From Acholeplasmataceae bacterium (lineage in GTDB: Bacteria > Bacillota_I > Bacilli_A > Acholeplasmatales > UBA5453), in the NCBI GenBank assembly GCA_012522345.1, contig JAAYKO010000062.1, forward strand, positions 1 to 40,808: a stretch of DNA of 40,808 nucleotides. The letters are read 5' to 3'. The position numbers and the translations under genes are program-made. The notes beneath the pieces are model-generated. The model ran no database searches. It was not told the DNA's origin and worked only from the letters and a program-made list of their open reading frames with translations. How positions within the stretch are numbered: position 1 is the first letter of the stretch; each line of letters opens with the position of its first letter. Positions 5,981 to 19,076 of the stretch are shown here, piece after piece.

Positions 5981-6070
5981 AATTACCATAAAGAGAAGGT
6001 GAGAGACAAGCTCAACGACCCTTCAGCAACCTGTCAAAAGATAAGGTGCTAATGCTTGAACGATGGCAAT
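5981..6070 (+). promoter_or_regulatory. SAM riboswitch (S-box, SAM-I family)
   Basis: The S-box hallmarks appear in order: AGAGAAGGTGAGAGAC, then CAGCAACC, then AAGGTGCTAAT. P1 can form between ATTACCAT (5982-5989) and ATGGCAAT (6063-6070) with one mismatch. The 3' P1 strand (GATGGC, 6062-6067) can instead pair with GCCATC (6090-6095) in the 5' arm of the terminator, the usual anti-terminator arrangement, so binding of S-adenosylmethionine should cause termination. Only about nine bases lie between GCTAAT and the 3' P1 strand, too few for a normal P4 hairpin, so this may be a shortened variant. It controls the orphan gene at 6136. Confidence 0.87.
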
Positions 6071-6086
6071 GTTTTTTTTATCTATT

Positions 6087-6116
6087 AACGCCATCAATTA
6101 TGGCGTTTTCTTTTTT
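6087..6116 (+). terminator. Riboswitch-controlled terminator
   Basis: A perfect 8-bp stem, AACGCCAT (6087-6094) / ATGGCGTT (6100-6107), has a 5-base loop and a T-rich tail. It lies between the SAM aptamer and the next gene and shares bases with the anti-terminator. Confidence 0.88.
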
Positions 6117-6135
6117 GGTAGAAAGGAAAATATCG

Positions 6136-6480
6136 ATGCATATAGTAGAAAAATGGTTATTAACCTACCAAAATGAAGAGCTTACAATCACTCCTAAAAA
6201 TGTAAGCATCCACGCCCCTTTAAATAGAGTTATCGATAAAGTGGGCCATTATTTAATAAGTTTTATTGAAATTGAAAGCATTATCTACATTGTTACATAT
6301 GAACCAATAGAAGCTATTGGAAGTATTACAAAGTTATTAGTAACAAAATTTATTAAAACAGATGAAGGTGATAAAATGACAAATTTAGAAGAAAGTGATA
6401 GAAAAAACATGCAGTTAATTGCTAACCATTTTATGAAAACAAGTTTCAGCCTAAATTTAAAGCAAACAAAATATAATTGA
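6136..6480 (+). CDS. Orphan 114-residue protein under SAM riboswitch control
   Basis: The ATG at 6136 follows GAAAGGA with suitable spacing. An in-frame start at 6046 would lie inside the riboswitch and translate through the terminator hairpin, so it was rejected. The stop is TGA. The protein begins MHIVEKWLLTY, has a hydrophobic beta-rich middle (GHYLISFIEIESIIYIVTYEP, split here as residues 38-57) and ends in a basic tail. It has no signal peptide, clear membrane helix or known motif. It is the only gene in the unit; a terminator-like palindrome follows. S-box control suggests a link to methionine, SAM or sulfur metabolism, but I cannot name a function. Confidence 0.75.
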   Translation: MHIVEKWLLTYQNEELTITPKNVSIHAPLNRVIDKVGHYLISFIEIESIIYIVTYEPIEAIGSITKLLVTKFIKTDEGDKMTNLEESDRKNMQLIANHFMKTSFSLNLKQTKYN

Positions 6481-10810: not shown

Positions 10811-12337
10811 ATGATAGTTTTAGATGGGCATAGTTTAACGTTAAAAGAATTAATTAAAATTGCTGAAAACAAAGTATCAGTAAGTATTGCAGCTGACAAT
10901 AAAAAGGCTATTGATCAAGCTAGCAAATATATTAGTCAAGTTGTTAAAAATAAAAAGCCAATTTATGGAATTAATACTGGTTTTGGCCACTTCTCACAGA
11001 CAATGATTGATAATGAAAAATTAGAAGATTTACAAACTAATTTGTTGTTGAGTCACGCTTGTGGTGTTGGAAAAATGCTTCCTGAAACTGTCGTAAGAGC
11101 AATGATGGCTTTAAGGATTAATGCCCTTATTCAAGGGTTTAGTGGGATTCGTTATCAAACTATCAAACAGCTTCTTTTACTTTTAAATAAGAATATTACC
11201 CCTGTCGTTTATGAACAAGGAAGCCTTGGAGCTAGTGGTGATTTAGCTCTGTTATCGCATATGAGTTTACCACTTCTTGGAATGGGTGAAGTTATTTATC
11301 AAAATAAAATTATTAAGGCCGAAACAGCTTATCAGCATTTGGGACTTGAACCACTTCCTAAACTATACCCTAAAGAAGGTTTGAGTTTAATCAATGGAAC
11401 TCAAGGGATGAGTGCTATTGGTGGACTTGCCTTAAATGAGGCTTTTAAGCTGCTTAATTTAGCTAATTTAGCTTTAACTCTCACGATGGAAGCTTTAGAA
11501 GGGCTTACTTCAGCATATGATGAGAAAGTGCAACAATTACGTAAACAAGATGGACAAATTGCAGTCGCAAAACAATTAAGAACTCTTTTAAAGGGAAGTG
11601 TATATGCCACAAAATATAGTAAAGAAAAAGTCCAAGATGCCTATAGCTTGCGGTGCGGACCACAGGTTCATGGAGCGAGTCTTGGCGTTTTTTGGCATGT
11701 TAAAGAAATTGTTGAAAATGAATTTAACGCCGTTACTGATAATCCACTAGTTTTTATTGCTGAAGATGAGGTAATTAGTGCTGGTAACTTTCATGGTCAA
11801 CCTCTAGCACTTGCGTTTGACTACTTAGCTATCGCAGTTAGTGAATTAGCTAATATTAGTGAACGCCGAATTGAAAGGCTTGTTAATCCACAACTTAATA
11901 ATGGTCTTCCACCCTTTTTAACAAAACATTCTGGTCTTAATTCTGGCTTTATGATTGTTCAATATACTGCTGCTTCTTTGGTAAGTGAAAATAAATCATT
12001 ATCGCATCCAGCTTCTGTCGATTCAATTCCTTCAAGCGCAAATCAAGAAGATCACGTTTCAATGGGCTCAATTTCAGCTCGCAAAGCTAGAGATATAATT
12101 GAAAATACTCGTAAAGTTATCGCTATGGAACTTTTAACTGCATGTCAAGCACTTGATTTTAAAGGAATTGAAGGTGCTGGAAAGATTGCTCAACAAACTC
12201 ATAGATTAATTCGAACGAAAATTCCTTTTATCGCTAATGATGAAGCCTTATATCCTCATCTTCAAAAAATAGAAAAACTACTTTTAGATGATAATTTTTA
12301 TTCTACTTTATTTAAAGGAGTTGATTTGATTGAATAA
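10811..12337 (+). CDS. hutH: Histidine ammonia-lyase
   Basis: The protein has 508 residues, full length for the family. It removes ammonia from L-histidine to give trans-urocanate, the first step of histidine breakdown, in the cytoplasm. The MIO prosthetic group forms from Ala-Ser-Gly at 141-143 in GSLGASGDLALL. The conserved YGINTGFG with the catalytic Tyr (Tyr52) is near the N-terminus, and FHGQPLAL and the SISARKARDI-type C-terminal segments are present. The ATG follows GGAGGA at 10 bases. It is the first gene of a five-gene operon in which every gene overlaps the next, so the operon is translationally coupled. The next gene begins inside its last codons. Confidence 0.97.
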   Translation: MIVLDGHSLTLKELIKIAENKVSVSIAADNKKAIDQASKYISQVVKNKKPIYGINTGFGHFSQTMIDNEKLEDLQTNLLLSHACGVGKMLPETVVRAMMALRINALIQGFSGIRYQTIKQLLLLLNKNITPVVYEQGSLGASGDLALLSHMSLPLLGMGEVIYQNKIIKAETAYQHLGLEPLPKLYPKEGLSLINGTQGMSAIGGLALNEAFKLLNLANLALTLTMEALEGLTSAYDEKVQQLRKQDGQIAVAKQLRTLLKGSVYATKYSKEKVQDAYSLRCGPQVHGASLGVFWHVKEIVENEFNAVTDNPLVFIAEDEVISAGNFHGQPLALAFDYLAIAVSELANISERRIERLVNPQLNNGLPPFLTKHSGLNSGFMIVQYTAASLVSENKSLSHPASVDSIPSSANQEDHVSMGSISARKARDIIENTRKVIAMELLTACQALDFKGIEGAGKIAQQTHRLIRTKIPFIANDEALYPHLQKIEKLLLDDNFYSTLFKGVDLIE

Positions 12338-14327
12338 TATTTCAATAGAAAGTTTATTTAAAGTTTTGCCTGAATATCCCAAATTTATAGACGGAATTAG
12401 GCGGGCGCCAAAACGGGAACTTAATTTAAGTAAAACAGATCAAAAATTAGCTTTAAAAAATGCTTTAAGGTATATTCCTAAAAAATGGCATCAGAAGCTT
12501 GCACCAGAGTTTTATCAAGAATTAAAAACTCAAGGCCGAATTTATGGCTATCGATTTAGACCAAAGGGGCGAATTTTTGCTAAACCTATTGAGCAGTATA
12601 AAGGTTTAACTGTTGAAGGTCGAGCACTTCAAGTGATGATTGACAATAATTTAGACTTTGAGGTTGCGCTTTATCCTTATGAACTTGTCACTTATGGCGA
12701 AACTGGGCAAGTCTGTCAAAATTGGATGCAATACCATTTAATTAAAGCTTATTTAAAAATAATGAAACCTAACCAGACTTTATCGATTCTTTCTGGCCAT
12801 CCTTTGGGATTATTTGCAAGTAGTGTTGAAGCACCGAGGGTTGTACTGACGAATGGACTGATGATAGGTCTTTATGATAACTTAACAAGTTTTAACCGAG
12901 CCACTGCAATCGGCGTAACCAATTATGGACAGATGACCGCTGGCGGGTTGATGTATATCGGCCCTCAAGGCATTGTTCATGGCACTTATTCAACGCTCTT
13001 AAATGCTGGTCGCTTAAAGTTAGGGCTTAAAACTGATGATAACCTTAAGGGGAAACTTTTTGTTTCATCTGGTCTTGGCGGAATGAGTGGTGCTCAAGGA
13101 AAAGCAGCAATAATTGCAGGCGGTGTTGCGATAGTCGCAGAAGTTGACTATTCAAGAATTAAAACAAGATTCGACCAAGGTTGGATAAACCTAATTGTTG
13201 ATAAACCGGAGTTAGCCTTCGGTACTGCCAAAAAATATCTTACTGAGAAAAAAACGATTGCGATTGCCTATTATGGAAATATTGTCGATTTACTTGAATA
13301 TGCCGTTAACAACAAAATTAAAATTGATTTATTAAGCGATCAAACTAGTTGTCATGCTGTTTATGATGGCGGTTATTGTCCAGCAGATCTCAGTTTTGAA
13401 CAAAGAACAGAATTGCTAGCCACAAATAAATTTGAATTTGCAAAATTGGTGGATTTATCTTTAACTCGTCATTATCAAGCGATTAAAAGTCTAGTTGCGA
13501 GAGGAACTTATTTCTTTGATTACGGCAATAGTTTTTTAAAAGCTGTTAGTGATACGGGAATTAAGGAAATCTTTAAAAATAAAGAAAACGACTTAGCTGG
13601 TTTTATTTATCCTTCTTATGTCGAAGATTTAATGGGACCTTTGTTGTTTGATTATGGCTATGGACCGTTTCGTTGGATTTGTTTATCAGGGAAAGATAGC
13701 GATTTAGACTTAACGGACCAAGTTGCGTTAAACTGTATCGATCCAACAAGACGTTTTCAAGATAAAGATAATTATGAATGGTTAAAAAATGCGAAATCAA
13801 ACAATTTAGTAGTTGGCAGTAAAGCCCGCATTTTATACCAAGATGCAAATGGGCGCTTAAAGATCGCGCTTGCCTTTAATGATTTAGTCCGCAAAGGAAA
13901 ATGCGGTCCTATTATGCTTGGTCGCGATCATCATGATACCGGTGGTACAGACTCACCATTTCGTGAAACCGCCAATATTAAAGATGGTTCTAACATCACT
14001 GCTGATATGGCAACTCATGTCGCTTTAGGAAATGCTCTAAGAGGGATGAGTTTAGTCGCTCTTCACAACGGCGGCGGCGTTGGTATCGGTAAAGCAATCA
14101 ATGGTGGTTTTGGCATGGTCTTAGACGGCAGCACTAAAACTGATGAAATTTTAAAAAGGGCGTTGCGATACGATGTTATGGCTGGCGTTGCCAGGCGAGC
14201 TTGGGCCCAAAATTCACCTTCAATTGAAACTATAATAACTGATGATGATCCGCTGTTGAATGTAACTTTGCCTGAATTAGCTGATGAAAGTTTGCTTGAA
14301 AAAATAGTTGAAAAGAGGAATAATTGA
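12330..14327 (+). CDS. hutU: Urocanate hydratase, long (eukaryote-like) type
   Basis: The protein has 665 residues; it converts urocanate to imidazolonepropionate using tightly bound NAD. The start is TTG at 12330, set by AAAGGAG at 12314-12320 (9-base spacing); it overlaps hutH by 8 bases. The NAD-binding parts ITVTNYGQMTAGG-like (194-206, here IGVTNYGQMTAGG) and SSGLGGMSGAQ (246-256) are clear. The length exceeds the roughly 550 residues of the common bacterial enzyme and fits the longer class found in animals and some anaerobes. Consistent with that class, the segment before GPFRW reads LLFDYGY and lacks the cysteine that is active in the short type. The stop TGA overlaps the ATG of ftcD. 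Confidence 0.96.
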   Translation: MNNISIESLFKVLPEYPKFIDGIRRAPKRELNLSKTDQKLALKNALRYIPKKWHQKLAPEFYQELKTQGRIYGYRFRPKGRIFAKPIEQYKGLTVEGRALQVMIDNNLDFEVALYPYELVTYGETGQVCQNWMQYHLIKAYLKIMKPNQTLSILSGHPLGLFASSVEAPRVVLTNGLMIGLYDNLTSFNRATAIGVTNYGQMTAGGLMYIGPQGIVHGTYSTLLNAGRLKLGLKTDDNLKGKLFVSSGLGGMSGAQGKAAIIAGGVAIVAEVDYSRIKTRFDQGWINLIVDKPELAFGTAKKYLTEKKTIAIAYYGNIVDLLEYAVNNKIKIDLLSDQTSCHAVYDGGYCPADLSFEQRTELLATNKFEFAKLVDLSLTRHYQAIKSLVARGTYFFDYGNSFLKAVSDTGIKEIFKNKENDLAGFIYPSYVEDLMGPLLFDYGYGPFRWICLSGKDSDLDLTDQVALNCIDPTRRFQDKDNYEWLKNAKSNNLVVGSKARILYQDANGRLKIALAFNDLVRKGKCGPIMLGRDHHDTGGTDSPFRETANIKDGSNITADMATHVALGNALRGMSLVALHNGGGVGIGKAINGGFGMVLDGSTKTDEILKRALRYDVMAGVARRAWAQNSPSIETIITDDDPLLNVTLPELADESLLEKIVEKRNN

Positions 14328-15301
14328 TGAGACAAATTGTTCAATGTGTACCTAATTTTTCTGAAGGTAGAAATCAAAATATTATTAATGAAATTATTAA
14401 ACCTTTAAAAAATCAGGCAGGATTTATCCTAGTCAGTTTTGAACCTGACCAGGACTATAATCGCACAGTTGTGACCTTACTCGGTGATCCCGAAGCAATG
14501 ATTGAGCCTTTAGTTAGCTTCTTTGCAAAAGCTTTGGAGCTAATTGATTTAAATAATCATCGCGGACAACATCCCCGAATGGGTGCTGTTGATGTTGTTC
14601 CCTTTATTCCGATTAGTAATATTACAATTAAAGAATGCGTTAATTTTGCTAAAATTTTAAGTGAAAAAATTAATTCTAAATTAAACATTCCTATCTTTTT
14701 GTACGCTAAAGCTGCAACAACTAAGATTAGAGAAAGTTTGCCTAAAATTAGACAAGGTGAATTTGAAGGAATGAAAACCAAAATAAAAGAACCAAATTGG
14801 CACCCTGATTATGGAGTCAATGAAATTCATCCTACCTTTGGGACGGTTGCAATTGGCGCTAGGTTACCACTTATCGCTTACAACATTGACTTAGCAACTA
14901 AAGATCAAAAAATAGCGAATAAAATTGCTCGGGCAATCAGAGGGTCAAGTGGTGGCTTTAAATATATTCAAGCTGGACCTGCTTTTTTGGATAAGAGAGG
15001 TCACATGCAGGTTACAATGAATATTTTAGACTACAATAAAAATCCATTATACAGAATTTTCGAGGTAGTAAAAACAGAAGCTAAACGTTATCAATTAGCA
15101 GTTACTTCATCTGAGATTATCGGTTTAATCCCACGAGATGCTTTAGTAGAATCGATTCACTATTATCAAGCTGCTGGTGGTTATAAAACCGCTTTAGACC
15201 TTAGTTTAAGTGAAATTAGTAATTTGGCTATTAAATATTTCGGTTTACGCAACTTTTCAAAAGAAAAAATAATTGAATCATACTTAGAGGTTTTAAAATG
15301 A
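14327..15301 (+). CDS. ftcD: Glutamate formimidoyltransferase (single-domain FtcD)
   Basis: The protein has 324 residues from the ATG at 14327, which shares its A with the hutU stop; a TTG one codon upstream is less likely. It transfers the formimino group of N-formimino-glutamate to tetrahydrofolate, giving glutamate and 5-formimino-THF. Typical features are IVQCVPNFSEGRN at the start, the active-site region with NHRGQHPRMGAVDVVPF (about 84-100), and GTVAIGARLPLIAYN (about 174-188). The cyclodeaminase half that is fused in animals is encoded separately two genes on. It overlaps hutI by ATGA. Its presence replaces HutG or the HutF/HutG route. Confidence 0.95.
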   Translation: MRQIVQCVPNFSEGRNQNIINEIIKPLKNQAGFILVSFEPDQDYNRTVVTLLGDPEAMIEPLVSFFAKALELIDLNNHRGQHPRMGAVDVVPFIPISNITIKECVNFAKILSEKINSKLNIPIFLYAKAATTKIRESLPKIRQGEFEGMKTKIKEPNWHPDYGVNEIHPTFGTVAIGARLPLIAYNIDLATKDQKIANKIARAIRGSSGGFKYIQAGPAFLDKRGHMQVTMNILDYNKNPLYRIFEVVKTEAKRYQLAVTSSEIIGLIPRDALVESIHYYQAAGGYKTALDLSLSEISNLAIKYFGLRNFSKEKIIESYLEVLK

Positions 15302-16563
15302 AAGCTGACTCCTTAATTTACAATATAAAGACTCTTTATACCCCAATACATGAACCACCTCTTAGAGGCGCTAATTTACGTGCTATTAAAGAGCTTACTA
15401 ACGCTTATATTGCTGTAAAAAATGGTAAAATAATTGCTGTAGGTGAAACTGATTATTCTCAGTTTTTAAGTCCTGAAACTAAAAAGATAGATGCTAAAGG
15501 AAAAATCGCTCTTCCTGGGTTTATTGATGCTCACACTCACCTTGTTCATGCTGGTTCTAGAGAAGAGGAGTTTGCAGCTATTCAGCAAGGCGTACCATAT
15601 TTAGATATTTTAGCCGGGGGTGGCGGTATTATTAATACTGTCTCAAAAACTCGTGCGACTTCCTTTGTTGAATTATTAACTCAAGCACGAAAATCTTTAA
15701 ATAAAATGCTTAGTTATGGCGTTACTACGATTGAAGCCAAAAGTGGCTATGGGCTAAATCTTGCCACTGAAATAAAACAACTCCAAGTCGCTCAAACCTT
15801 ACATCAACAAGGGCCAGTTCATATAACCTCAACATACATGGGTGCTCATGCAATTCCACTTGAACATAAAAAAAATCCGGCCACTTACATCAATAGTATT
15901 ATTGCTGATTTACCGACCATTAAAAGTCTAGGCTATGTTGATGTCGTTGATGTATTTTGTGAAAAGGATGTCTTTAGTCTCTCTGAAACAGAAAAAATCT
16001 TAACTGTAGCTAAAAATTTAGGATTTAAAGTCAGACTGCATGCAGATGAACTTGAGGCTTTGGGTGGTGCTGGACTGGGAGTGAAACTCGAAGCAATCAG
16101 CGTCGATCATCTCATTAATATAAGCGATAAAGATATCGTTAAACTTGGTCAAAGTAACACTTTTGCTTGTCTCTTACCCGGAACTTCATTTTACTTGCAA
16201 AAACCATTTGCTAAAGCTCGAATGATGATTGATAATAATGTCGCTGTTTGTGTTGCCGGTGATTACAACCCTGGCAGTTGTCCAACTGAAAATTTTCAAC
16301 TTATTATGCAACTCGCTGCTAGTTATTTAAAATTATCGCCAGAGGAAGTTTTAAACGCTGTTACTATCAATCCTGCTCATCTCTTAAATCTTTCTAATCA
16401 AAAGGGAAGCTTAACTCCAGGAAAAGATGCTGACATACTTCTTCTAGATGCTCCAAACTTAGCTTATATTATGTATCATTTTGGAATCAATCATGTAAAT
16501 GATGTCTTTATCAAAGGAAAACAGGTTGTGAAAAATAAACGAATAGAAGGTGAAACGAAATGA
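15298..16563 (+). CDS. hutI: Imidazolonepropionase
   Basis: The protein has 421 residues and belongs to the amidohydrolase superfamily. It opens the ring of 4-imidazolone-5-propionate to give N-formimino-L-glutamate, the third step of the pathway. The metal site begins with DAHTHLVHAGSREEEF (His-x-His, about residues 79-94). Downstream are EAKSGYGL, YMGAHAIP, KVRLHADEL (metal His) and the VAGDYNPGSCPTEN segment (metal Asp), all characteristic. The C-terminal GSLTPGKDADILLLDAPN is the usual beta-sandwich return. ATGA overlaps link it to ftcD before and fchA after. The order ftcD-hutI-fchA shows that folate-linked breakdown is a single expression unit. Confidence 0.96.
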   Translation: MKADSLIYNIKTLYTPIHEPPLRGANLRAIKELTNAYIAVKNGKIIAVGETDYSQFLSPETKKIDAKGKIALPGFIDAHTHLVHAGSREEEFAAIQQGVPYLDILAGGGGIINTVSKTRATSFVELLTQARKSLNKMLSYGVTTIEAKSGYGLNLATEIKQLQVAQTLHQQGPVHITSTYMGAHAIPLEHKKNPATYINSIIADLPTIKSLGYVDVVDVFCEKDVFSLSETEKILTVAKNLGFKVRLHADELEALGGAGLGVKLEAISVDHLINISDKDIVKLGQSNTFACLLPGTSFYLQKPFAKARMMIDNNVAVCVAGDYNPGSCPTENFQLIMQLAASYLKLSPEEVLNAVTINPAHLLNLSNQKGSLTPGKDADILLLDAPNLAYIMYHFGINHVNDVFIKGKQVVKNKRIEGETK

Positions 16564-17207
16564 ATCTTTGGCAAAAACCCTTATTTGAATTTGTCGATTT
16601 AGTTGACTCCAATTCTCCCGCTCCTGGTGGTGGGAGTTGTGCTGCTTTAATGAGCACCTTAGGTTTAGCACTCGCTCGCATGGTTGGGCATTTAAGTATC
16701 AATAAAAAACTTTTTTTAAAGCATGACAAAAAAGTGCAAAAAGAGTTTAACGAAACTTTGACAACTCTTTTGGAATTAAAAGAAAAAATCATTCCCTTAA
16801 TCGATGAGGACACCGCAAGTTTTAACGCAATTATGGCTGCTTTCCGTTTAGCAAATAAGACTCAAGAAGAAAAACTTTTAAGGTCACAAGAAATTAAAAA
16901 CGCAACTCTGCAAGCGATTAAAATCCCCTATCAAGTCGCAAAATTATCTCTTGAGGCGCTACTGGCTTTAACTCCCATTCTAACTTATGGCAACAAACAA
17001 ACTATGTCTGATCTTGGGGTGGGAATCTTAGCGCTTTGTAGCGGTATCGAAGGAGCCGTCTACAATGTTTTAATCAATTTAATTGGCTTTCGTGAGGCTG
17101 AAACCGTAACTCAATACCAAAAAGAAGTAAAGCAAATGTTAGAAGTCACCAAACAAACAAAAACTAAATTACTAGGACAAATTTACCGCAATCTTGAGTT
17201 TGCTTAA
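16560..17207 (+). CDS. fchA: Formiminotetrahydrofolate cyclodeaminase / methenyl-THF cyclohydrolase family (FchA)
   Basis: The protein has 215 residues and equals the C-terminal half of animal FTCD. It removes ammonia from 5-formimino-THF and closes the ring to 5,10-methenyl-THF. The N-terminal signature FVDLVDSNSPAPGGGSCAALM (here about residues 11-31) and the helical remainder fit the all-helical cyclodeaminase fold. It overlaps hutI by ATGA and is the last gene of the operon, followed by a strong terminator. Some members of the family act as methenyl-THF cyclohydrolases; placement beside ftcD favours cyclodeaminase here. Confidence 0.93.
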   Translation: MNLWQKPLFEFVDLVDSNSPAPGGGSCAALMSTLGLALARMVGHLSINKKLFLKHDKKVQKEFNETLTTLLELKEKIIPLIDEDTASFNAIMAAFRLANKTQEEKLLRSQEIKNATLQAIKIPYQVAKLSLEALLALTPILTYGNKQTMSDLGVGILALCSGIEGAVYNVLINLIGFREAETVTQYQKEVKQMLEVTKQTKTKLLGQIYRNLEFA

Positions 17208-17349: not shown

Positions 17350-18798
17350 CTAAAAACTAGTTTTAAAATCCTTTTTAAAAGTTGCGATTAATTTTGTTTG
17401 CCAATCAGATATAGGTGTTAATTCACCGAAAAAGAAGCGAAGAATATTAGGTTCTTTTACAAACTTTAAACCACCAACTAACTCCCGGTGATTATAAAGC
17501 CAAACAATTCTATCAATTGCATAATTAATTTGCGATAAAGTGAACGTTCTTCGCGGTATAGCTAACCGCAATAACTCAACATCAGCGATTCTTTCACTTC
17601 CGTCGCTTTCGCGTTGTTCAGACATTGTTCCTCTTTCCATTCCTCTAATTCCACTAATTAAATAAAGCGCCACCGCAAGCGAACCAGCTGGATATTGATT
17701 TGAGGGTACGTGTGGCAAAAAGCTTCTTGCATCGAGATGACAGCCAAGACCTCCTGGCGGGGTAACAACTGGAACATTAAATTTTAAGAGGGTTTCAGCC
17801 ATATATTTAATAAATTCAGGGCCTTGACTAATCACATCATCTTCCATCGATTCATCAATACCAACCCGGATCGCTTCCATCTCTTTTGTACTCATACCAC
17901 CATATGTTAAAAATCCTTCATACAAGATTACAAACTCTTTCATCACATCAAGAAGTTTTTTATCTTTTAATAAAATTCCGCCACCTCTTGCAAAGCCAAA
18001 TTTACGGGCTGAAAAATACACGATATCAAAAAGCGAACAGAGTTCTTTTGTAATCTCTTTAATTGTTTTTTCTGTTTCACCGGATTCTTTTGCTTTGATA
18101 AAATAGAGATTATCTTGTAGAAGACTGGCATCAAGAACTGAAATAGCACCGTATTTTTGACACAATTTTGTAACTTCTTTTGCGTTTTCTAAAGCGAAAG
18201 GCTGACCACCAATAAGATTAGTTCCCGCCTCCATTCTCACAAAAGCGATATCTTTTACTGAATGGCTTTTAAAGTGTTTTTTTAATTTGGCAAGATCCAT
18301 ATTTCCTTTAAAAGGATGATCGCTTACTAAATTCAAGCCTTCAGCAATTATTAATTCATCAACGATGCCGCCTTGTGCTAAAATATGAGCTTTAGTTGTT
18401 GTAAAGTGATAGTTCATTGGGACTCTCATCCCAGGTTTTACCAATGCCTTAGCAATCAGATGCTCACAAGCTCTACCTTGATGGGCTGGTAAGAAATAAG
18501 GTAAACCGAATAATTCTGTTAATTTTTCTTCTAACTTATAATAGGTTTTGCTCCCTGCATAAGCATCATCAGCAGTCATTGAAGCAGCTAGTTGTTCATC
18601 ACTCATCGCGTTAGTCCCGCTATCTGTCAACATATCTAAAAACACATCTTCACTTTTTAAAAGGAAGGTGTTGTTTCCAGCTTTTGTGATTGCCTTAAAC
18701 CGCTTTTCTGGTGATAACAAATAGCTTTTTTGAACAATTTTAACTTTGTGAAACTCAAGGGGTTGATTTGGCAGAAACTTCATTGTAACTTTTTTCAT
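17350..18798 (-). CDS. PLP-dependent beta-eliminating lyase, tyrosine phenol-lyase/tryptophanase family, divergent
   Basis: The protein has 482 residues, with AAAGGAG before the ATG. These enzymes split tyrosine or tryptophan into phenol or indole, pyruvate and ammonia. Conserved parts include GTNAMSDEQ, AYAGSKTYYKLE (Tyr80), TNLIGGQP, LDAS, YEGFLTYGGM, RLAIPRRTF (Arg411) and LRFFF. The residues that set phenol-lyase specificity by my memory of the Citrobacter enzyme are present: Thr133 in HFTTT and Arg389 in GMERG, where tryptophanase has Asp and Val. The PLP-lysine loop is unusual: SARKFGFARGGG (Lys266) in place of SGKKD/SAKKD, and the usual Arg after DAT is Leu226 (DASLL). So the fold is sure and the substrate is not. 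A T-box riboswitch controls it. Confidence 0.85.
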   Translation of the reverse strand: MKKVTMKFLPNQPLEFHKVKIVQKSYLLSPEKRFKAITKAGNNTFLLKSEDVFLDMLTDSGTNAMSDEQLAASMTADDAYAGSKTYYKLEEKLTELFGLPYFLPAHQGRACEHLIAKALVKPGMRVPMNYHFTTTKAHILAQGGIVDELIIAEGLNLVSDHPFKGNMDLAKLKKHFKSHSVKDIAFVRMEAGTNLIGGQPFALENAKEVTKLCQKYGAISVLDASLLQDNLYFIKAKESGETEKTIKEITKELCSLFDIVYFSARKFGFARGGGILLKDKKLLDVMKEFVILYEGFLTYGGMSTKEMEAIRVGIDESMEDDVISQGPEFIKYMAETLLKFNVPVVTPPGGLGCHLDARSFLPHVPSNQYPAGSLAVALYLISGIRGMERGTMSEQRESDGSERIADVELLRLAIPRRTFTLSQINYAIDRIVWLYNHRELVGGLKFVKEPNILRFFFGELTPISDWQTKLIATFKKDFKTSF

Positions 18799-18828: not shown

Positions 18829-18859
18829 TAAAAAAATTCATCCTTAGATAAGGACGAAT
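18829..18859 (-). terminator. T-box-controlled terminator
   Basis: On the minus strand ATTCGTCCTTA pairs with TAAGGATGAAT (one G-U) and is followed by seven Ts. Its 5' arm would be captured by the T-box anti-terminator when uncharged tRNA is bound. Confidence 0.9.
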
Positions 18860-19076
18860 CTATTTTAGACCGTGGTACCACCTTAATTCGCTATCAAATA
18901 GCCTCATGTTAGTTTTTGTGCTGGCAACTTAACAAGCCAGGAAAAACTCCTATATAAGTAATTCACAGTCACTTTTTGGGATACTTACACCAGCCGTATC
19001 TTCTCTTAACATTAAAAAGTGTTGCTACTCTTTATATATTCAGCGTTTATCTTGATTTAATTACTCTATTAAAACA
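18829..19076 (-). promoter_or_regulatory. T-box riboswitch ahead of the TPL/tryptophanase-family gene
   Basis: The T-box core AAGGTGGTACCACGG lies at 18884-18870 (minus strand), directly before the terminator. Upstream is stem III, CTGGC...GCCAG (18920-18940), and stem I with AGAGTAG, AGAGAAG, the distal loop GGCTGGTGTAA closed by GATAC/GTATC, and the GTGAA and GGAG elements around the specifier loop. GTGAA (18966-18962) is followed by TTAC: read directly the specifier is TTA (Leu), shifted by one it is TAC (Tyr). TGG (Trp) does not occur there. A T-box turns expression on when its tRNA is uncharged. Confidence 0.93.

Follow-up and report, generated by a model that had tools for sequence, protein, structure and literature searches.

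The window, by which we mean the whole stretch of 40,808 nucleotides from an Acholeplasmataceae bacterium analysed here, carries on its minus strand a T-box leader followed by one gene for a PLP enzyme related to tyrosine phenol-lyase (TPL). The locus is made up of the following features:

18847-19052, minus strand: T-box leader (tRNA-sensing riboswitch), identified with Rfam RF00230 and also in a genome-wide search
18947-19046, minus strand: Stem I, with the AGUA loop-E half, the AGAGA...GGUG apical motifs and the specifier loop, from the cmscan alignment
18958-18960, minus strand: specifier triplet UAC (tyrosine), from the comparison of leaders
18850-18885, minus strand: antiterminator with the T-box sequence AAGGUGGUACCACGG, from sequence and fold (-6.4 kcal/mol)
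18834-18861, minus strand: intrinsic terminator, a 12-pair stem plus U-run, from a terminator scan and fold
17350-18798, minus strand: TPL-like PLP enzyme of 482 aa, of a distinct subfamily, from PF01212, PRK13238, a tree, residue tables and a structure model

A cmscan search of 701 bases aligned the leader (18847-19052, minus strand) to RF00230 over the complete model (1-219), with 83.5 bits and an E value of 1.5e-18, and the genome-wide Rfam search returned nine T-boxes, the window leader among them. The gathering score of RF00230 is 93 bits, above that of the window leader, so a default Rfam scan misses the T-box and reports only a SAM riboswitch in the window. In relatives, many of the leaders before this gene score 94-138 bits, above the gathering score; the T-box homology of the window leader is therefore not in doubt. 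The antiterminator follows the pattern AAGG-[UGGUACC]-ACGGUCU...CCUU and folds with a 7-nt bulge, and UGGU at 18877-18880 (minus strand) is the predicted partner of the tRNA NCCA end. One terminator was found by the scan against 0.3 expected, and its helix has a folding energy of -13.3 kcal/mol against -6.4 kcal/mol for the antiterminator. These competing structures both precede the gene, as in a T-box of transcriptional design. A sequence-only reading of this DNA had recognised the T-box core, the Stem I elements and the terminator, all of which are borne out by the Rfam match, the terminator scan and the folds; the alignment to RF00230 that it proposed covers the whole model at the E value given above, although the score stays below the gathering threshold.

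The TPL-like gene (17350-18798, minus strand) is, as that reading had said, the sole gene behind the T-box, and it is monocistronic; the neighbouring gene ends at 17207 on the opposite strand. We also observed a complete histidine-degradation operon (hutH, hutU, ftcD, hutI, fchA; 10811-17207, plus strand) that stops just short of the convergent TPL-like gene. Elsewhere in the window, a SAM-I riboswitch (RF00162, 60 bits; 5983-6069, plus strand) and a terminator-like hairpin are followed by a small ORF at about 6137-6480; no Pfam family matches the ORF that encloses it (6046-6480). SAM control of this uncharacterised small protein would be unusual.

T-boxes raise expression when their cognate tRNA is uncharged. 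For the specifier of the window leader, TTA or TAC had been suggested and tryptophan argued against. Each of the 27 distinct leaders of the TPL-like gene family, two of which (L047 and L049) were read by eye, has UAC at the specifier position, so that TAC is confirmed, TTA is not, and the specifier is indeed not that of tryptophan. Within the window the context is GAA-U-UAC-U, where UUA directly follows GAA, in a register that several leaders of this genome normally use; read in this way, the switch would sense leucine. UUA is unreadable, however, in most relatives, whose contexts are GAA-UAC-A, GAAA-UAC-A, AUA-UAC-A and GAAGU-UAC-A, while UAC is common to all 27, and the one-base offset seen in the window recurs in this genome before thrS (GAA-U-ACU-C). 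A leucine specifier is thus extremely improbable, and we rejected it on the comparison of the 27 leaders. The other T-boxes of this genome have their codon one base ahead of the Stem I lower helix, and the codons read there are GCU (alaS), UGG (trpB and trpS), UUC (pheS) and AUC (ileS), the genes being named from their translated starts, or by HMM for trpB and thrS.

As a control, we read 37 T-boxes in three genomes that carry the gene. UAC was found before three TPL-like genes and before two tyrS genes (L150 and L166, the tyrS identity of both being confirmed), and triplet reading gave UAC in none of the remaining 32. Given UAC in 27 family leaders and two tyrS leaders and in none of these 32, the window switch is a tyrosine T-box, and its specifier, as judged by leader comparison, is UAC. 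The amino acid specified also matches the gene, since UAC occurs in 27/27 leaders and the enzyme has a tyrosine pocket.

The enzyme is a member of the beta-eliminating lyases, PF01212 (166 bits; cut-off 27), and matches NCBIfam PRK13238 (559 bits; cut-off 285). It fails the TPL equivalog model TIGR02618 (425 bits against a cut-off of 720.7) and both tryptophanase (TnaA) models, TIGR02617 (327 against 826 bits) and NF053783 (391 against 750 bits). In a tree of 78 sequences, 66 subfamily members, mostly from Bacillota and Mycoplasmatota, are placed apart from TPL and tryptophanase with full support. The predicted structure is nearest to the TPL structures 9j3u and 1c7g (TM 0.89-0.90); sequence identity to TPL is 37-39%. 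Judged by its sequence, the enzyme is neither a canonical TPL nor a tryptophanase and is a member of a distinct sister family. Its earlier description as a catabolic-type PLP lyase therefore had the family right (PF01212, PRK13238) and missed the separate subfamily, which fails the equivalog cut-offs of both named enzymes.

With TPL (TIGR02618; 1c7g, 2ez1, 9j3u) the window enzyme shares the fold, the PLP lysine and, in TPL numbering, Asp214, Asn185, Tyr71, Thr124, Met379, Arg381, Arg404 and Phe448; Met379 is kept in 65 of the 66 members and the other seven, together with Lys257, in all 66. Five residues discriminate TPL from tryptophanase, namely Thr124, Met288, Met379, Arg381 and Phe448 (PMC5805759). 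The subfamily keeps four of these five phenol-specific residues, and position 288 is Phe as in TnaA, which belongs to the same superfamily. The counterparts of TnaA Asp137, Val394, Ile396 and His463 are missing from the window enzyme, these tryptophanase-type residues being replaced in the subfamily by Thr, Met, Arg and Phe. Apart from the change of Met288 to Phe, the subfamily differs from TPL in four replacements found in all 66 members (Arg217 to Leu, Lys256 to Arg, Thr216 to Ser, Asn262 to Arg or Lys) and in Glu69 to Asp, found in nearly all. Within the PLP-contact set, then, Asp214, Asn185 and Lys257 are kept and Arg217 and Lys256 are replaced throughout, the latter two being conserved in all 12 TPL/TnaA sequences compared. 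We take Arg217 and Lys256 to touch PLP or the area around the substrate carboxylate, and Asn262 and Glu69 to lie at the TPL monovalent cation site (roles partly from PMC3870968). With changes at both sites the chemistry may be tuned differently, and with Arg217 and Lys256 replaced TPL chemistry cannot be assumed for the subfamily.

In fold-type I enzymes of this kind, the reaction can switch when residues surrounding the cofactor change. The invariant replacement of Arg217, Lys256, Thr216 and Asn262 near PLP and the cation site suggests altered chemistry of this sort, by which the enzyme could provide tyrosine or a substitute amino acid through another reaction, such as transamination of 4-hydroxyphenylpyruvate or beta-replacement with a substituted phenol; were 4-hydroxyphenylpyruvate imported, the absence of TyrA from many T-box genomes (see below) would be immaterial. 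The residues separating phenol-lyase from indole-lyase are nevertheless kept, which points to phenol as the leaving or entering group, and Tyr71 and Arg381 would be superfluous in a transaminase. We consider another reaction rather unlikely.

A scan of named genomes found the subfamily in Bacillota, Mycoplasmatota, Actinomycetota, Bacteroidota, Planctomycetota and Rhodoplanes, and gave a single, partial match in Archaea. The T-box core lies directly upstream of the gene in nine genomes of the first named search (window included), before 16 of the 21 subfamily genes sampled evenly across class Bacilli and before 5 of 27 in a Clostridia sample; the pairing occurs in dozens of species. Rfam confirms the T-box in all 15 core-bearing loci submitted, and leaders before subfamily genes have Rfam E values of 1e-10 to 1e-30. 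The sequence-only reading had proposed a search for T-boxes before homologues, which thus finds the pairing in many genera, and had named as a refuting case a lyase gene recently inserted behind a synthetase leader, which does not hold given conservation on this scale. At canonical genes no T-box was found (0/4 TPL-type, 0/6 TnaA-type, 0/10 together), nor was one found at order-level tryptophanase loci; a tryptophanase-type paralogue in the same genome as the window (L020) is likewise without a T-box. Because the T-box is conserved on the subfamily and occurs at 0/10 canonical genes, the leader is neither a chance nor a recent arrangement. These comparisons give good support to a tyrosine T-box that has been kept, in many genera, before genes of a sister family of TPL.

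T-box-bearing members do not cluster on the subfamily tree: their distribution takes about ten changes to explain, and the T-box has therefore been repeatedly lost or gained. An Rfam search of 15 Clostridia loci without a T-box core, at E values up to 0.01, found no T-box, and we rejected the idea that one had been missed there. Clostridia members L076-L088 and their neighbours have several hundred non-coding bases upstream, without a T-box or other Rfam family; members of this type may be under another tyrosine-responsive control. In L018 a T-box-like core falls within the coding sequence of a gene on the other strand, and we dismissed it. Nor did about 50 loci show any conserved neighbouring gene or an adjoining phenol-supplying or pathway gene, and we dropped the attempt to deduce a pathway from the gene neighbourhood.

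Other T-boxes were noted along the way. One locus has a second T-box (L094:1133-1369, minus strand) downstream of the TPL-like gene and before an ABC-type amino-acid-binding lipoprotein; it is probably not a tyrosine T-box, because its specifier region reads GAUACUAAUCACUUC. GNAT acetyltransferase genes stand directly behind a Val (GUC) T-box in L001 and an apparent Asp (GAC) T-box in L009, where they apparently lead operons with tRNA synthetases, and a similar protein begins an operon in L162.

Known tyrosine T-boxes control tyrS, NhaC transporters, and a tyrosine biosynthesis operon and phenylalanine-4-hydroxylase in the B. cereus group, the hydroxylase being an enzyme that makes tyrosine from phenylalanine (PMC2494555). 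The window leader resembles known tyrosine T-boxes (RF00230) in its Stem I with UAC, its antiterminator with UGGU, its terminator and its transcriptional design, but its target is a TPL-family enzyme; the words 'lyase' and 'tryptophanase' are absent from the text of PMC2494555. TyrR mediates activation of the canonical TPL gene, which is regarded as catabolic (PMC1173090) and has no T-box in the loci checked, so the control of the subfamily is opposite in sense. The open-access papers searched, with subscription papers outside the scope, contain no report of a T-box on TPL or tryptophanase genes, and priority for the pairing of a T-box with this subfamily cannot be claimed.

This opposite regulation (PMC1173090) is one of several points against an ordinary tyrosine-degrading phenol-lyase that the T-box simply brings back to basal expression, or that provides pyruvate and ammonia when starvation is general. 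Although the family is shared with TPL, T-boxes raise expression only upon starvation for the cognate amino acid, the pairing is a property of the subfamily that canonical TPL and TnaA do not share, and the TPL equivalog cut-off is failed. We judge an ordinary degradative role improbable.

The genome to which the window belongs contains a DAHP synthase-tyrA pair together with aroB, aroA, aroE and aroC (named from translations), whereas pheA and trpA were not found there. It may make tyrosine conventionally and, given tyrA and the aro genes, would gain a second route through the TPL-like enzyme. Across the Bacilli sample, presence of the gene showed no association with the absence of TyrA (TyrA present in 7/21 genomes with the gene against 126/374 without it), and we dropped the idea that the subfamily is a general substitute for TyrA. 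TyrA (prephenate dehydrogenase) is missing from the genomes of 17 of 23 T-box-bearing members against 3 of 10 others (Fisher p 0.026, uncorrected), a comparison of incomplete MAGs that amounts to about one phylogenetically independent informative pair.

The same genome offers a parallel. On contig C76 (L003), a Trp T-box (UGG) lies directly before trpB with no trpA found, and this reads as indole salvage, from indole to tryptophan; a leader similar to that of L003 also precedes trpB in L160. Both systems place an enzyme that would build an aromatic amino acid from a free aromatic compound and a three-carbon unit under the matching T-box, but the folds differ, and the trpB reaction is known whereas that of the TPL-like enzyme is predicted. 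By analogy with trpB, the TPL-like enzyme would therefore serve phenol salvage.

T-boxes answer uncharged tRNA regardless of its cause. The enzyme, with its TPL-type pocket, might clear toxic tyrosine analogues (for example meta-tyrosine or halotyrosines), whose blocking of tyrosyl-tRNA synthetase increases the amount of uncharged tRNA-Tyr. Yet a phenol-lyase doing so would also break down tyrosine just when the cell has least of it, misacylated tRNA would leave the switch untriggered, and no analogue-related genes lie nearby. Analogue removal seems to us a poor prospect.

We propose that uncharged tRNA-Tyr would act through the tyrosine-specific T-box to switch on the single gene, whose product, a divergent TPL relative predicted to retain the phenol/tyrosine pocket, would join phenol to a three-carbon aminoacrylate to give tyrosine. 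The aminoacrylate would come from serine or from pyruvate and ammonia. The TPL reaction is reversible, and TPL also exchanges side chains; because of this reversibility, phenol with serine, or with pyruvate and ammonia, is a chemically reasonable set of substrates. Taking together the sign of T-box control, the kept phenol-recognition residues and the parallel with trpB under its Trp T-box, the synthetic direction is the best inference. We infer that tyrosine is the product, phenol the aromatic substrate and a three-carbon compound the donor, and on balance we lean towards the view that tyrosine starvation induces a TPL relative that forms tyrosine, probably from phenol and a three-carbon unit.

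On a limited search of papers, the reverse TPL reaction is not known to us as a physiological route to tyrosine in any case. It is used industrially for the production of tyrosine and L-DOPA (work cited in PMC12058496). The conservation of a tyrosine T-box before a divergent TPL family gives a direct, testable prediction of a physiological route from phenol to tyrosine. More tentatively, and with somewhat less confidence than in the reading above, we suggest a dedicated anabolic sister family of TPL in gut and digester bacteria, induced by tRNA-Tyr starvation and forming tyrosine from phenol independently of the shikimate pathway. If true, this would change the annotation of widespread proteins that 'tryptophanase' or 'tyrosine phenol-lyase' models match at present, and it would have consequences for predicted auxotrophies and for how gut, termite and digester communities are thought to metabolise phenol or indole.
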